This document shows, piece after piece, positions 1 through 56,434 of a DNA stretch of 64,000 nt. The notes under the pieces are model-generated. The model made no database searches. It was not told the DNA's origin and saw only the letters and a list, made by a program, of their open reading frames with translations. The position numbers and the translations under genes were made by a program. The first letter of the stretch is position 1. Each line of letters starts with the position of its first letter. The stretch comes from Campylobacter troglodytis (lineage in GTDB: Bacteria > Campylobacterota > Campylobacteria > Campylobacterales > Campylobacteraceae): positions 28,907 through 92,906 of the forward strand of contig NZ_QHLI01000003.1 of assembly GCF_006864425.1 (NCBI RefSeq), read 5' to 3'.

Positions 1-545
1 CTTCTTGCAAAGTTGCGAGTGTAACGAAGCAAAAAATCCACCAAGGCACCGTAGGATTTTAGTCAATCGCTGTAAATTTCACTTTCTTTAAGCTCTGAAA
101 AGTCCTTTATGATGGGTAGCAACTCTTTGGCAGAGCAAATGTTTGAGCGTATAGACTCGTGCGATTGCATTTTAGTATTCCTTCTCGCAAAGGGACAAGA
201 GGCTTAACGAAGTAAAAACACAGGTGTCTTTTTTCCAGCCCCGCGCCCACGCTTTCCACGCACACCACCGAAGTAGCTCTCATCAACTTCGATTTCACCG
301 CTGAGATTTTTTCGCACTCTTTAAGGGTTAAAAGCTTGCTGCACTATCCTATTAACACAAGGGCGAGAAACCTTGCAAAGAGGGCAATTTTGCTTACGCA
401 AAGATCAGCACAAAAACACTCTAAAATTGATTAAATTTTCGCTTTCAAATGTAGGGCAAAAACATATACTAAGATCGATTTTATCAATTTTTTAGATCTA
501 ATTATATTAGCTAAAAGTATCAATCGCCATTTAAAAATATGACTT
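1..545 (-). mobile_element. IS1595-type transposase remnant, copy A (cut by window start)
   Basis: Reading the minus strand, conceptual fragments resemble the ISXO2/IS1595 DDE transposase: SGEIEVDESYFGG near 290, a GKKTPVF segment near 220, then GILK and, after a gap, KELLP and KDFSELKESEIYSD. The frame is broken. A 34-bp insert lies at 182-215 between the TTT of TPVF and the GGA of GILK. A second, 31 bp, lies at 2-32 after a VDF segment. The SYF/GG site is uninterrupted in this copy. A stop codon replaces the glycine after YSD, so this is a pseudogene. The C-terminal part lies outside the window. Confidence 0.75.
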
Positions 546-7984: not shown

Positions 7985-8897
7985 CTCAAGATACTTTAAT
8001 AGGATTTTGGCTTATCAATTTTAATAAATTTTGATGAGAATATTGCCTTAAATTTTTCGTCTTAACTCTGTTTCTTTTAAATGAAGGATAAAATTTTCTT
8101 TTTTTGTGCTTCTAAATTTAGCTAAACGAAACTTTGCAAATCCCCCTCTGCTTGCAGTTGCAAGAGGCTTAACGAAGTAAAAAAGTTCTTTATTTCGTTA
8201 TGTGGTTTTGTCCCTTTGCAAACCCGTTTGCACTATGCTTTACTCTGTAACTTGCCTTTGCTCCTTCTTGCAAAGTTGCAATCCTTGCGAAGCAAAAAAT
8301 CAACCAAACCATCATAGGCTTTGAATCTTTCTTGTAAATCTCACTTTATTCAAGCTTTGCAAAGTCCTTTATAATAGACAATAGCTCTTTGGCAGAGCAG
8401 TGTTTGAGCATATAAACGCTAAGCTAGCGTTTTAATAAACCTTTTGCTTACAGTTGCAAGAGGCTTAACGAAATAAAGACATAGGTGTATTCTTACCAGT
8501 TCCATGTCCCATTTTTTCCACAAACTCTTTTTGCACATTCTGTTCGAAGTTGCAAGACGAAACGAAACAAAAAATAACTCTCACCATCTTCAATCTCACC
8601 ACTCATTTTGCTAATTTTTCACACTCTTTAAGGGTTAAAAGCTTGTTGCACTATTCTATTAACACAAGGGCGAGAAACCTTGCACAAAACAGCGATTTTG
8701 CTTACGCAAATATCAGCACAAAAGCACTCCAAAATTTGTCTAAATTTACGCTCAGAAATGTGCGATAAAAATATATACTTGTTTAACATCGATTTTACCA
8801 ACATTTCAGCCGTAATTACATCAGCTAAAAGTATCAATCGCCAAATTTATATATTTATACTTTAAAACCATCTTGTATCAAATTAAAGTATCTTGAG
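7985..8897 (-). mobile_element. IS1595-type element remnant, copy B, with perfect 16-bp ends
   Basis: CTCAAGATACTTTAAT at 7985-8000 is exactly inverted at 8882-8897, marking a complete element of about 913 bp. The minus strand encodes broken transposase pieces: an N-terminal HTH (CADICVSKIAVL), GEIEDGESYF, and RVKHSANGFAKGQNH. Four short inserts interrupt it: 8538-8570 (after SYF), 8442-8474 (before GLLKR), 8265-8295 (after VDF) and 8146-8180 (after NF). The KYF-equivalent position near 8700 carries none. Inactive as it stands. Confidence 0.8.
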
Positions 8898-9388: not shown

Positions 9389-9774
9389 CTCAAGACAACT
9401 TAAGCGGATTAGAACTCATCATTTTTAACAAGATTTTATACAAAGCTTGATCTTGAATTTTCGTCTTAACTTAGTTTCTTTTAAGTGAAACAAGAAATTT
9501 GCTTTTGCCTTTAAATTTAGCAAGTCTATGTTTAGCAAAGCTCTAGAAATTCACAATTTTATTTATGTGATTCTTAGCTAAACTCATTTTTGGAATGTTT
9601 TACCCTAAATGTTCTTTAGTACCTTCTTGCAAAGTTGCAAGTGTAAGGATGCAAAAAAATACTTCAAAATCTCTTTAAATTTAGCCTCTGAAATTCTGAA
9701 ACGATTGATATACTTGTTTTTCATCTTATAAATCATAACTTGAAACTTCTTTATGTGAGCTTAAGTTTAAGAGA
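9389..9774 (-). mobile_element. Internally deleted IS1595-type remnant, copy B2
   Basis: The left end CTCAAGACAACTTAAGC (9389-9405) is identical to that of copy D. A degenerate inverted end lies at 9759-9774. On the minus strand an N-terminal segment ending in KYF runs into one insert (9624-9654), then straight into a C-terminal segment GTKEHL with HIN near 9570. The catalytic middle is missing. This is the structure expected if inserts at two different positions had recombined. Confidence 0.7.
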
Positions 9775-16808: not shown

Positions 16809-17258
16809 TCCTACCTTTAATCTTAGCTTTTACTTTAATCTTGTTTTTGTAAACTGTGTAAATCTTATATTTATAAGTATTTAAAAAATATTTAAATTCC
16901 TTAAATTCAAAACCTAGTAACCTTTGCAAAAAAAATTCACAAAAAGCCAAATTGTCTAAATTCATAAAACTACAATTTGCAAATTCTTGTCTTAAATTTA
17001 GAGCAAAAGCAACAAGTTTTAAAAACTTAAATAATTTTGAATTATATCTAATTTTTCTTTCTTTTTAGGAAAAAATAAACTTATTTTAAGCTATCTTTGG
17101 TGTTTAAATTTAAGCTATCTTTTAAATCTTGCATAAAATTCAATTTCTAGGATCAATTTATGTGAGCTTATAAAAAGCTCATTTTTAAAACACCCAACAA
17201 AAATTAAATTTGTGAAATGCTAACTTTAACAGCTTGTTTTAATGCGGCAAAAATAATG
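16809..17258. other. Intergenic DNA, no gene seen
   Basis: 450 bp of AT-rich sequence with AAATTC words. It presumably holds the promoter for the minus-strand motA-like operon. Nothing else is recognisable before the IS remnant. Confidence 0.5.
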
Positions 17259-18109
17259 GCTCAATTAAACTTAAACTAAATTGAAAGGTTTTTAAGTTAA
17301 GTCCTATGAAAAACAAAAATCCGTTCCAGAATTGTATCAAAAGAAATTTAGGTAAATTTTGCGTTATTTTTTACTTCGTGCTACGCGTCTTGTAACTTTT
17401 GGGGGATTGATTTAGAGGTGAAAAAAACGCTCTACTTTGTCAAATTCCTCATCAAAGTTTGTGTAAAATTTTCAAATAAATTCACATTTTGATAGCCAAA
17501 GAATGCTAGAAACTTTCTAAAATGATCGGTGAAATAGAAGTTGATGAGAGTTATTTCGGTGTAAGGAGTGGACGTGGTAAGCGTGTATGTGGGGTTGGTA
17601 AAAAACACCTGTGTTTTTACTTCGTGCTACGCGCTCATAACTGTAAGCAGAAGGGATGTTAAAGCGAAACGGTTGTATTTATACTCTAAAACACTTGCTC
17701 TGCCAAAGAGCTACTATCTATTATAAGGGACTTTGCAGAGCTTAAAGAAGGTGAAATTTACAGCAACAGCTTCAAAGCCTACGGTGCCTTGGTTGATTTT
17801 TTACTTCACTATGCTTGTAACTTTGCAAGAAGGAGTAAAGCTAATTATATGGTAAAACATAGCAAAAACGAGTTTGCACATTAGCGAAATCATATCAATG
17901 GGATAGAGAACTTTTTTACTTCGTGCTACGCGTCTTGTAACTGCAAACAGAAGAGGCTTTGCAAAGCTTCATATTATTGAAATTCGTGGCATAAAAATAG
18001 AAAATTTTGTCCCTCATTTAAAAGAAATTAAGTCTCAAAATTTAGGACAAAATTCTCATCAAAATTTAATGAAGTTGTAAGAAAATATCCGCTTAAGTTA
18101 TCTTAAGCC
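17259..18109 (+). mobile_element. IS1595-type transposase remnant, copy C, with four short inserts
   Basis: Ends resemble GGCTCAATTAAACTTAA (17259) and an inverted GCTTAAGTTATCTTAAGCC (18091-18109). The plus strand reads as transposase pieces: GEIEVDESYFGVRSGRGKRV from 17523 (uninterrupted site 2), GMLKRNG near 17655, YGALVDF, NYMVKHSKNEFAH and IENF. Inserts lie at 17372-17402 (site 1, after YF), 17617-17652 (site 3, after the VF codons), 17801-17831 (site 4, after VDF) and 17915-17952 (site 5, after ENF). The stop codons inside the inserts inactivate it. Confidence 0.82.
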
Positions 18110-18144
18110 AAAACCATTTACTTTGAATTTAACTTAGCCAAATT

Positions 18145-19209
18145 TTAATTTCTATTCAAACAGTTTAAATCCTCAAAGGCTCTTTCAAGCCTTTTTATCA
18201 TACTTTCCTCACCTGCTCTAAGCCACACACGAGGATCGTAATATTTTTTATTTGGCTTGTCATCGCCCTCAGGATTTCCGATCTGTCCTTGTAAATAAGC
18301 CCTATTTGCACTCTCATAGCCTCTGACCCCATCCCAAAAAGCCCACTGGGTATCTGTGTCTATATTCATCTTTATGACCCCATAGCTAAGTGCTTCTTTT
18401 ATGTCTTTTAGCTCGCTTCCACTGCCTCCGTGAAAGACAAAATTCACAGGCTTGTCATCTTTGAGTGCGAATTTTTCCTTGACAAAATTTTGTGAATTCT
18501 TTAAGATACTAGGCTGTAAGCTTACATTTCCTGGCTTATACACCCCGTGTACATTGCCAAAGCTAGCCGCAATGGAGAATTTATCACTAATCTTACCAAG
18601 CCTTTCATAAGCAAGGGCTACGTCCTCTGGCTGGGTGTATAATCTAGCATTGTCAATTCCTGTATTATCCACGCCGTCCTCTTCACCTCCTGTGCATCCA
18701 AGTTCTATTTCAAGGCTAATTCCAAGCTCACTTAGCCTTTTAAGATAAGCCTCGCAAGTAGAGATATTTTCCTCTAAGTCCTCCTCGCTTAGATCAAGCA
18801 TATGAGAGCTATAAAGGGCTTTACCATAGATCTTTTTATTATCCTCACTTGCCTTTATAAGAGCATCCACCCAGGGAAGTAATTTTCTTGCTGCATGATC
18901 TGTATGCAAGATCACAGCCACTCCGTAATTTTTAGCAAGTAAATGAACATGCCTTGCACCGCTAATAGCACCTAGGACATCGCCATTTGGGCAGTTTTTA
19001 CCAGCCATAAATTTAGCCCCTCCATTTGAAAATTGAATAATCACAGGAGAGTTTACCTTCTTTGCCACCTCTAAGACCGCATTTATGGAATTTGATCCAA
19101 CTACATTTACAGCAGGTATGGCAAAGCCTTGTGCCTTTGCATAGGCATATACCTTGTTTAGCTCATCCCCACTTACAACCCCAGCACCTACTAAGTCTAA
19201 AACACCCAT
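18145..19209 (-). CDS. fba: Fructose-bisphosphate aldolase, class II
   Basis: 354 residues. The zinc and active-site motifs are VILHTDHAARKLLPW near residue 100, ELGCTGGEEDG near 170, FGNVHGVYKPGN near 220, and VFHGGSGSELKDIKEAL followed by KMNIDTDTQWAFW. It interconverts fructose-1,6-bisphosphate with DHAP and glyceraldehyde-3-phosphate. In Campylobacter, which lacks phosphofructokinase, it serves mainly gluconeogenesis. Its ATG overlaps the peb4 stop (TAATG), so it is translated from the peb4 message. Confidence 0.96.
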   Translation of the reverse strand: MGVLDLVGAGVVSGDELNKVYAYAKAQGFAIPAVNVVGSNSINAVLEVAKKVNSPVIIQFSNGGAKFMAGKNCPNGDVLGAISGARHVHLLAKNYGVAVILHTDHAARKLLPWVDALIKASEDNKKIYGKALYSSHMLDLSEEDLEENISTCEAYLKRLSELGISLEIELGCTGGEEDGVDNTGIDNARLYTQPEDVALAYERLGKISDKFSIAASFGNVHGVYKPGNVSLQPSILKNSQNFVKEKFALKDDKPVNFVFHGGSGSELKDIKEALSYGVIKMNIDTDTQWAFWDGVRGYESANRAYLQGQIGNPEGDDKPNKKYYDPRVWLRAGEESMIKRLERAFEDLNCLNRN

Positions 19210-29886: not shown

Positions 29887-30745
29887 CTCAAGACAACTTA
29901 AGCGAATTATTTCTTATCATTTTTAGCAAGATTTTATACAAATCTTGACCTTGAAGTTTCGTCTTAACTCTGTTTATTTTAAATGAAGCATAAAATCTTC
30001 CTTTTTGATTCCTTTAAATTTAGCTAAGCTATGTTTAGTAAAGCCTAAGAAATTCACAATTGCATTTATGTGATTCTTAGCCAAACTCATTTTTTGAGTG
30101 TTTTACTCTAAATGTTCTTTAGCTCCTTCTACTACGCAGTTGCAAGTGAAACGAAGCAAAAAATCTACAAGTTAATCATAAGCTTTCCAAGTATCACTAT
30201 AAATTATGCTAGATTCTAAGTCTGCAAAGCTAGGTAAGGCAAAAGCTCACTAGCAAAACAATTCTTTACTACTTGGGTATAAACGCTAGCCTAGCGTTTT
30301 AACATACCTTCTTGCAAAGTTGCAAGACGCGTAACACGAAGCAAAAACACAGGTGTTTTTTTACCTACTCCTCTGCCTCTTTTGCCTCTGCCTCTTTTTG
30401 CACCTTCTGCTAGCAGTTACAAGCCTAGCGTTGTAAAAAATAGCTTTCATCAATTTCTATTTCACCATTTAATTTAGAGATTTTTTCACATTCTTGTGCA
30501 ATTAAGATTCTAATTTGCTTAAAGAGTTTGCATAAAGTTTGCTCTGATATTTGAGTAATTTTTGCAATTTTTACTGCTTCAATATCAAGGCTTCTTGCAA
30601 AGTTGCAAGCCGCAAGGCGAAGCAAAAAATACTTTACAATTTCTTTAAATTTAGCATCTGAAATTTTGAAACTATTGATATACTTATTTTTCATTGCTGT
30701 AATCATAACTTGAAGCTTATTTCTTAGAGCTTAAGTTGTCTTGAG
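29887..30745 (-). mobile_element. IS1595-type element remnant, copy D, with perfect 17-bp ends
   Basis: CTCAAGACAACTTAAGC (29887-29903) is exactly inverted at 30729-30745, giving an 859-bp element. The minus strand reads as transposase pieces: ISDAKFKEIVKYF, LDIEAVKIAKITQISEQTLC, GEIEIDESYF, GAKRGRGKRG, GMLKR, ASVYTQVV and HINAIVNF. Inserts lie at 30592-30625 (after KYF), 30405-30436 (after SYF), 30309-30344 (after the PVF codons) and 30127-30159 (after the site-4 F). Stop codons within the inserts break the frame. Confidence 0.83.
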
Positions 30746-31074
30746 TCTTTTAAAATACTTAAAACAAAGTGAAAATTCGCGTTTGCGTGAATTTTATGGA
30801 TGAGCTTAGTTTTTTTGCTATAAATTGACAAGGCGAAGTATTACTAGGCGATGTTTTGCTTCGTGCTCTTGTAGCTACGTAATAACAGGGGCTACATAAG
30901 GCAGTAAGCAGAAATAGAATAATGTAGTTTATCCCTATGAAGTAGCCAAAGTTGGAGTGAGCTTGAAAAAGAGCTTTGATTAAAGGCTAAGCCCTCAAAG
31001 GCTAAATTGTTATTAAAATTTACTTAAACGAAGCATTGATAGGCTTAATTGTGAATTTTTACTCATTTAAAATC

Positions 31075-44949: not shown

Positions 44950-45560
44950 CCATCATTGCAAGCCTTGCTAAATCAAGGTGTGGCAATCCATAGAAATGAA
45001 AATTTATGAAAGTTGTTGCCATTGCGAGCTTTGCGAATACAAAGCGTGGCAATCCATAAAAATAAAAACTTGTGAATTTTTAAGAAAAATTTGTGAATTT
45101 TACAAGAAATTAGCATGAATTTATAAAGTCTGGTGTGAATTGTATAAGCTAAAGACTGAGTAAACGATAGAAAGAAAGAGGGCAAAACGCCCTTGTTTCT
45201 TGCCACTTTGCTTTTAAAATACCCATACTAAAACTAAAGCGTCTTTGGATCTTTGATTAGTCTTTAAGCTAGTTATTTGAGCTTATAATCTGCAAAAAGT
45301 GCTTGCATTTTAATCCTATTAAACTTTGTTTTTTAAATTTATTTTGAAGTTCTAGCTTTATTTGTGTTTTATTTTTGTTTAAATTTAAGTTTTTTCCCTT
45401 TTTAAAGGAACTTAAATTCAGCATTTTGCAAAATTTTCATGGCAAAAAAAGCAAAATTCAACCACACAGTCATTGCGAGGAAGCGTAGCTAACAAAGCAA
45501 TCCACAAAAACAAAGCGAATTTGCAAAAAATGGATTGCCACTAGCCTAAGGTCTCTTGCA
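44950..45560. repeat. GTCATTGCGAG...GGCAATCCA intergenic repeats
   Basis: Diverged copies near 44953-45000, 45017-45062 and 45468-45560 (also 44120-44170). Each has CATTGCGAG, a variable middle and GGCAATCCA or AAGCAATCCA, sometimes inverted. A dispersed repeat type common in many bacteria. No gene is convincing in this stretch. Confidence 0.7.
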
Positions 45561-45644: not shown

Positions 45645-46592
45645 AAAATGCTTTAATGTGATACAAGAACATTTGAAAGTATAAAGAGTTAGATAAAAAA
45701 CAAGTATATGATTCGTTTCCGAATTTTGCAGATATAATTTTGGGGAATTTTAAGGTATTTTTTACTTCGCCTTTCAATCCCCTCACTTTGCAAGCAGCCT
45801 TTGAATTAAAGACGAAAAAATCCCCGAAATTTGTAAAATTCTAGTATTTGCGTTAATAGAATTTTGCATAAAATTCGCATTTTAATTGCCAAAAAGTGCG
45901 AAAAATCTCTAAAATGAGCGGTTGAAGTTGATGAAAGTTACTTTTTGCAATGCTTGGCTCGTAACTGTGTAGTAGAAGGTGCAAGGCATGTTCGTGGTAA
46001 GCATGGATGTGAGCTGGTCGCACAAGATCTGTGTTTTTATTTCATGCTACTCGTCTTGTAACCGCAAGCAAAAGGTTTGCTAAAACGCAACGGCTGTGTC
46101 TATACACAGGTCGTCAAACATTGCTCTGCCAAAGAATTATTACCGGTTATAAAGGACTTTTCAGAGCTTAAAGAAAGTGAAATTTACAGCGATGGGCTAA
46201 AATCCTACTGTGCCTTGGTTGATTTTTTGTTTCGTTTTGTCTTGCAACCTTACAAGAAGGAGCAAGGGCACATTACAGAGTAAAACACACCAAATTCGAG
46301 TTTGCAAATGGGCGAAGCCATATCAACGAAATTGTGAATTTCTGGGGACCTTACAAAGGCTAGCTTAGGGGGTTTCACGGAAAGAGAATTTTTCTTTTTA
46401 CACTTAAAGGAAACTGAATTTAGATCTAATGTCAAGGTTAAGAATGAAAATTTGTATAAAATTTTGTTAAAATGGCTTAGAAAAAATCCTAGGTCATTTT
46501 AGCTAAAAGTATCAAGTGCCTAAAATTAAGACAAAATCTCTATCAAGATTTATTAAAATTGATGAGAGAAAATCTTGTTAAGTTTAATTGAG
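45645..46592 (+). mobile_element. IS1595-type transposase remnant, copy E, with four short inserts
   Basis: Reads VEVDESYF, GARHVRGKHG, GLLKRNGCVYTQVVKHCSAK, ELLPVIKDFSELKESEIYSD, then GARAHYRVKHTKFEFANGRS, HINEIVNFWG and a C-terminal FFFLHLKETEFRSN. Inserts lie at 45762-45796 (site 1), 45945-45977 (site 2), 46037-46073 (site 3) and 46227-46258 (site 4). Site 5 (NFWG) is uninterrupted. Between inserts the frame is mostly open, making this the best preserved copy. The right end GTTAAGTTTAATTGAGC is near 46577-46593; the left end is degenerate. Confidence 0.82.
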
Positions 46593-55821: not shown

Positions 55822-56434
55822 CTAAATCTTAATTAATTTTAATGAAATTTACAAAGAATTCACTTCAAGCTTCTTGCTTTTAAATTTACAAGGAGCTTGT
55901 ATGCTTTGGCGCTTAATGCTTTTAGCTGATACACTTAGACTTGGTAAAATCTATCTTAGTATATATTCTGCCCTACATTTAAAAACGAAAATTTTAGCAA
56001 TTCTTGGAGTGTTTTGTGCTGATCTTTGTCTAAGCAAAATCGCCCTTTTTGCAAACTTTCTAGCCCTTGTGTAAATGCAACTGTGAAGCAGGCTTTTAAC
56101 CCTTAATAGTCTAAAAAAACAGCAAAAGTTTCTTTATCAAATGAGTGCTTAGCTTGAAGTTGATGAGGGTTGTTTTTTGCAATGCTAAGCTCGTAGCTGT
56201 GAGTAGAAGGTGTAAAAAATGCGTAATAAATGTGGATGTAAGGCTGGTCGCAAAGGTTTTTTCGTGTTTTTAAAACTGTGTAGTAGAGGTTTGCTAAATT
56301 TAAACTTGCCAAATTTAAAGGCTCAAAGAAAATTTTTGTCCCTCACTTAAAGGAAGATGAAAAATTGAAGACAAAGTTCTAAGCAAATTTTTCTGAAATT
56401 GATAAGATAACATTCTGTTAAGCTTAATTGAGCC
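55822..56434 (+). mobile_element. IS1595-type remnant, copy F, with internal deletion at inserts
   Basis: N-terminal pieces LMLLADTLRLGKIYLSIYSA and CADLCLSKIALFANF lie from 55905, LEVDEGCF near 56155. An insert at 56177-56208 (site 2) is followed by GVKNA. At 56270-56287 an 18-bp degenerate insert joins a site-3 left flank (GRKGFFVF) directly to a site-5 right flank (FAKFKLAKFKG, then FVPHLKED), so the middle third is missing. The right end GTTAAGCTTAATTGAGCC is at 56417-56434; the left end is poor. Similar end-like DNA continues to about 56545. Confidence 0.75.

Follow-up and report, generated by a model that had tools for sequence, protein, structure and literature searches.

The transposase genes of the IS1595-type insertion sequence (IS) copies in this stretch of DNA are interrupted by short related inserts, which raises the question of what these inserts are, how they came to lie at the same few positions and whether the genes that carry them still work. 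The window (the whole 64-kb stretch analysed) contains seven IS1595-type copies with 20 inserts at five sites (KYF, SYF, PVF, VDF and ENF), confirming the count in the initial annotation of about 20 inserts in seven IS remnants. The letters A-E denote the recurrent insert positions in the transposase gene, and the features are as follows.

2..32, minus strand: site D insert, IS copy 1
182..215, minus strand: site C insert, IS copy 1
8146..8180, minus strand: site E insert, IS copy 2
8265..8295, minus strand: site D insert, IS copy 2
8442..8477, minus strand: site C insert, IS copy 2 (bounds from the HMM match)
8538..8570, minus strand: site B insert, IS copy 2
9624..9654, minus strand: insert with the left flank of site A and the right flank of site D, IS copy 3
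17286..18224, plus strand: IS copy 4, the IS1595 remnant of the initial annotation (padded bounds)
17371..17403, plus strand: site A insert, IS copy 4
17617..17652, plus strand: site C insert, IS copy 4
17801..17831, plus strand: site D insert, IS copy 4
17916..17952, plus strand: site E insert, IS copy 4
30127..30159, minus strand: site D insert, IS copy 5
30309..30344, minus strand: site C insert, IS copy 5
30405..30436, minus strand: site B insert, IS copy 5
30592..30625, minus strand: site A insert, IS copy 5
45762..45796, plus strand: site A insert, IS copy 6
45945..45977, plus strand: site B insert, IS copy 6
46037..46073, plus strand: site C insert, IS copy 6
46227..46258, plus strand: site D insert, IS copy 6
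56177..56208, plus strand: site B insert, IS copy 7

The insert at 9624..9654 in IS copy 3 reads as a deletion joining two inserts, and IS copy 4 (17286-18224) has inserts at A, C, D and E and an empty site B.

The typical insert consists of TTRCTTCG, a variable part, CTYGYAA, a small second palindrome and AA, with TTT on its 5' side and G on its 3' side. Its right half, first described as a single sequence, comes in two kinds, CTyTGCrAG (sites A, C and D) and CTGCnnGCAG (B, E, and some inserts at C and D); the former is seen in 0 of 37 inserts at B and 0 of 30 at E. The variants are modular, in that a few loop words are joined with the two right-half kinds in many combinations. The net length at sites B-E is 24-45 nt, mostly 30-37, a wider range than the 31-38 bp first given as usual. 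Among 194 inserts at these sites, surveyed with a 22-45 nt filter, the length modulo three is 2 in 85, 0 in 58 and 1 in 51; the lengths thus ignore frame and, contrary to the initial annotation, include multiples of three. Translational -1 slippage at TTTTTTA was rejected because these lengths fit no one shift. In 168 parsed inserts the R of TTRC covaries with the Y of GYAA (A/T 67 and G/C 57 versus A/C 34 and G/T 10), and the TTRC/GYAA stem has this one covarying pair, with A-U in 28 and G-C in 19 of 56 distinct rows. The hairpins are weak: five of six inserts folded as DNA, one of the six being taken as its complement, are no more stable than shuffles. The outer CTTC/GAAG match of the insert ends is short, as judged by eye, and the IS1595 TIRs differ from it. 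Chance is excluded as the origin of the likeness among inserts, because CTTGCAACTTTGCAAGAA with up to three mismatches has 8 matches against 0.37 expected. A known RNA family was dropped as the identity of the insert, an Rfam search of window positions 17000-18300 at E up to 1 giving no family match.

The window genome (G000) is a 295-contig draft of 2,945,785 bases. Among named matches, the aldolase of the window is nearest to Campylobacter proteins, the best of these at 84-86%. The 48 other genus genomes searched measure 1.2-1.9 Mb, with IS1595 transposase matches at E 0.001 in two; at 2.95 Mb the window genome is about 1 Mb or more above them and displays an old IS1595 bloom. It has at least 71 matches to PF12762 (DDE_Tnp_IS1595), with 150 of 169 candidates scored. 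Target duplications of 8 bp with at most one mismatch flank 19 of 34 TIR-bounded copies, and 15 of these 19 contain inserts. The host element is therefore a member of the IS1595 family by its domain, its TIRs and its 8-bp duplications. An insert-free IS copy with TIRs and a 238-codon ORF lies 61 kb into contig C1 (L032); it differs from protein P0001 by two compensating frameshifts and shares 69-97% identity with the insert-free proteins P0001-P0004. None of eight insert-free IS copies in the window genome is free of lesions. Scanning contigs with the L032 transposase yielded 98 pattern matches and no confirmed one, in a scan that possibly did not take in the window genome.

The insert HMM was run over 1,089,637 bases, 37% of the window genome, and found 356 matches, 221 of them at E<1e-3; the reversed sequence gave 1 and 0. 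A genome search had been advised at the outset, as had weighing random decay, and the inserts prove to be one shared sequence. As many as 213 of the 221 strong matches (96%) lie in IS1595 clusters, which make up 107,018 of the 1,089,637 bases (10%); 211 of them are in sense and two in antisense orientation. Eight strong matches lie outside clusters, of which only L097:10306 is away from weaker IS similarity. Among all 356 matches, 348 are near IS1595 similarity and eight elsewhere, and at least two of these eight (L097:10306 and L134:12703) read as full inserts in intergenic palindrome clusters. The phenomenon is larger than first reported: the element extends beyond the window through 221 strong matches in the genome and through relatives in other genera.

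A census of site states in 139 IS copies of at least 300 nt gave filled/empty counts of 21/55 for A, 38/65 for B, 52/36 for C, 71/24 for D and 33/68 for E; from A to E, 36, 6, 4, 7 and 20 sites were in another state and 27, 30, 47, 37 and 18 were unalignable. The insert is the sole difference between filled and empty sites, with no repeated flank or target duplication seen in this comparison, and many empty sites have the family consensus text. None of 23 aligned family proteins has an insert at A-E. At another site, GEI/EIDES, proteins P0104 and P0120 have a 9-residue in-frame insert, a sister insert read in frame. The insert-free homologues and the plentiful empty sites uphold the original view that the segments are insertions.

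Several observations show how the inserts spread. The IS copies are old (median difference to the nearest copy 15.5% in 96 copies), and the minimum numbers of state changes on a quick tree of these 96 copies, a weakly supported one with 37 of 93 inner branches open, are 9 for A, 29 for B, 23 for C, 17 for D and 11 for E. The fill fraction rises with end-branch length (rho 0.43, p 1e-4, 74 copies), and also with stops and frameshifts; inserts accumulate with decay of the IS copies. At B and C the inserts become less alike as the backbones diverge (reached by 0 of 500 shuffles each), as they do at D (5) and E (11) but not at A (204 of 500 shuffles; nine inserts). Two copies, L089_12419 and L137_420, both have site A filled, with different variants, and share a C-to-D deletion joining two inserts; they have unlike flanks and perfect 8-bp target duplications, and the joined insert therefore moved with the IS. 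Broken IS copies have demonstrably moved with inserts aboard, and spread has probably been largely as an IS passenger, which lay beyond what the initial annotation could see. Passenger spread alone fails to account for the 17-29 state changes at B-D and for one 32-nt site-D insert that nine copies share letter for letter at a median backbone distance of 0.244, so that recombination between copies is needed as well. Our reading of the pattern combines passenger spread with reshuffling among copies. Long-tract gene conversion around the inserts was rejected, as filled B, C and D sites share no haplotype beyond about 10 bp; short tracts are possible, and at E and A some bins of the haplotype test exceed the shuffles. 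Frameshifts, too, are found repeatedly at particular codons, in about 6-32% of the copies that span them. These frameshifts were noticed at codons 12, 19, 51, 102, 112, 177, 188 and 202, in diverse copies and as discrete local sequence blocks.

The reading that we consider probable is that a non-coding REP/MITE-like repeat of about 30-37 bp entered after TTT and was then carried about, as a passenger, chiefly by the IS, which it broke. A tiny mobile element would have entered directly 3' of phenylalanine codons (TTT) in IS1595 transposase genes, its presumed target being a run of T with G behind it, in most cases TTTGG; the inserted repeat would break the host gene, the broken copies may have been mobilised in trans by an intact relative, and the inserts would then have spread mainly as passengers of IS copies, their variants probably being mixed between copies by recombination. 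We infer the original entry, its target preference and the enzyme behind it. The weak hairpins, the lack of target duplications at the inserts and the absence of a Y1 transposase (PF01797) match in the genome speak against this reading. The reference IS also has TTT(Y)GG sites, one on the plus strand and three on the minus strand, at which inserts do not recur; TTTGG alone thus does not define the target. Two copies in relatives with five and four inserts and no other lesion (L259 and L283) fit slow decay badly.

Searching other genomes of the Campylobacteraceae with the strict insert pattern gave 17 places in 10 of 149 genomes (reversed control 0). Three of these are IS1595 site A or B, in three genera, and 14 lie elsewhere as judged by eye, several at the apex of larger palindromes. 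These 14 places and the occurrence of both orientations favour the minimal mobile element, one of the two options first offered, over the other. Among 66 IS1595 copies from 34 other genomes, chosen among those with matches listed, 40 hold an insert of 20-75 nt, and 29 of 69 inserts are within two codons of sites A-E on position alone. By position, sites B, C and E are filled in five genomes each and A and D in one each; in two of the five at C (G146 and G149) the insert is not clearly this sequence. Because the intact proteins best aligned to the relatives' copies (five tried) have no inserts at B-E, and because the relatives' backbones differ by about 21-24% from window-genome copies, site B probably received inserts on more than one occasion. 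Both orientations are represented among the related inserts, and sister inserts, some of them inverted, lie at further sites. One sister insert of 23 nt was found in 17 of 153 genomes, in either orientation and both within IS1595 and away from it, and has no match in the window genome. Copy L266 (G161) has a tandem insert array at site A that is too long for the count, and in L284 (G188) an insert is apparently nested in another at site B.

These relatives bear on a reading that is possible yet rather unlikely, namely that a site-directed micro-element of 23-36 bp homes to Campylobacteraceae IS1595 and enters the same few codon sites independently in different genera, often as the first lesion of an IS copy. 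The sharing of sites A-E across genera, the two orientations and the copies with four or five inserts and no other lesion would be consistent with it. If true, the jumping gene would have a natural brake, supplied by some insertion machinery. It is likewise doubtful that an active micro-element entered each IS copy independently and in a site-directed manner, passenger spread playing no important part. In favour of this, site states are highly homoplastic, filled B, C and D have no common haplotype and several genera are hit at the same sites; units with shared inserts have demonstrably moved, however, insert similarity tracks the backbone and insert type depends on site.

That the IS ancestor had all five inserts and that copies lost them precisely and often is a quite improbable account. 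It would fit the drop in insert similarity seen at B-E as backbones diverge; against it stand the 23 insert-free family proteins, the many empty sites with consensus text, the increase of fill with decay, and the failure to see flanking direct repeats suited to clean deletion.

No more credible is that the genes still work, the inserts being skipped by translational bypassing, for which byps in yeast mitochondria and phage T4 gene 60 are examples, or cut out by splicing. The lengths of the window-genome inserts do not keep frame, which would suit such removal, and 4 of the 66 relatives' copies have inserts and no other frameshift or stop over at least 170 codons.

L259: five inserts, 226 codons, no other lesion, 8-bp duplication TAATAAAA
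L283: four inserts, 179 codons, no other lesion
L257 and L270: one insert each, no frameshift or stop elsewhere

Pairs that share two similar inserts also show a third-position bias (differences by codon position 529/447/910 over 27 pairs), which may predate the inserts or reflect conversion. Selection with inserts aboard was rejected as its cause, since the closest pair with two near-identical shared inserts shows none (10/11/10), nor do the copies of the single-contig genome G142. There, the 18 matches listed (18 of 38 candidates scored) all fall in 13 loci; 12 of these contain one and the same 32-nt insert at site B and the 13th (L244) contains part of it, and the copies have unlike flanks and 96.5-98.7% identity in the pairs compared. 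Their differences fall 7/11/7 by codon position; with no codon-position bias, these are dead copies that spread. In a trio of copies with a shared 23-nt insert and flanks alike by eye (L270, L285 and L286), L270 and L286 differ at 4/4/21 by codon position, but a tract of roughly 200 nt, at 373-568 from the ATG, accounts for 22 of the 29 differences, as in gene conversion. None of 73 insert-bearing copies in the window genome is otherwise intact, a weak test against a working gene because none of the eight insert-free copies is intact either; the absence of A-E inserts from the 23 aligned proteins also counts against removal. Most likely, the inserts break the IS1595 gene and are not removed from its message. 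Removal at the RNA or protein level is not supported, and the suggestion that the segments are removed at the DNA or RNA level found no backing in the 0 of 73 or in G142, though two copies in relatives, L259 and L283, may be exceptions.

An assembly artefact or random decay is negligible: the assembly is a 295-contig draft with more than 100 similar IS copies in 37% of the genome, but other assemblies, some of them single-contig (G142, G169 and G173), have related inserts at these same sites, and the inserts are one shared sequence.

Among known systems, the closest precedent appears to be RUP of pneumococcus. RUP and the Neisseria MITEs are described as small non-coding elements that enter and inactivate IS transposase genes of several families, and RUP as an intergenic element of 107 bp in 108 copies that inserts at TA and resembles IS630-Spn1 ends (PMC2229807). 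The insert shares with RUP that it is small and non-coding and that it would inactivate IS transposase genes; it differs in being about three times smaller (30-37 bp), in its fixed codon sites, in having 96% of strong matches in one IS family, and in showing no target duplication or matching transposase. Like a MITE it is under 200 bp, non-coding and multi-copy, but it has no target-site duplication. GTAG/CGTC-tagged REP sequences are palindromic, 20-40 bp long and of high copy number (PMC3733652), a size range that includes the insert. Whereas REPs are extragenic, the inserts lie mostly inside IS genes (213 of 221 strong matches), though 14 of the 17 strict matches in other genomes are outside IS1595. 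REPs go with Y1/RAYT transposase proteins. The window genome has no match to the Y1 transposase PF01797 at E 0.001, and Y1/RAYT mobilisation was therefore rejected. Rickettsia palindromic elements (RPE) are likewise described as palindromic and inside protein genes, at 105-146 bp and fused in frame (PMC2229807); the insert lengths here ignore frame (58 of 194 are multiples of three), which sets them apart. The byps of Magnusiomyces capitatus mitochondria are reported as short frame-disrupting inserts at many positions, with the frame restored in translation (PMC5009743); the inserts also disrupt frames at many positions and, with L259 and L283 as possible exceptions, show no sign of frame restoration (0 of 73; 7/11/7). 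Our verdict is that the insert is a tiny REP/MITE-like element that works like a MITE and matches the REP and MITE definitions only in part. Searches of the open-licence literature gave no description of such inserts in IS1595.

The insert would rank among the smallest mobile-looking DNA elements, and its residence in IS1595 would plainly exemplify one parasite living on another. Empty sites in the IS copies serve as built-in controls, so that one can measure how a REP/MITE-like element chooses its targets, how old it is and how it spreads, as is rarely possible with intergenic repeats. For annotation, these IS1595 genes are to be regarded as interrupted by inserts and not by sequencing error.

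Further repeats were observed beside the inserts. At window positions 45020-45057 and 45470-45503 and at L095:12504 there are intergenic repeats with the form ATTGCCACG..CTCGCAATGACG and a stem similar to the left half of the insert; they represent a wider class of palindromic repeats, from which the inserts may have arisen. Outside the IS copies, window positions 30854-30885 (plus strand) hold a weak insert-like sequence (E 0.29) within a GGCGAAGTATT palindrome cluster, resembling L097:10200-10345 and L134:12700-12770. A second recurrent insert, of 25 nt (AGCAAAACGAAGTTTCTTTAGAAA), lies in the codon 60 region of IS copies (e.g., L087:5120-5144), and a similar sequence is inverted in G009 at about L101:1224-1248.
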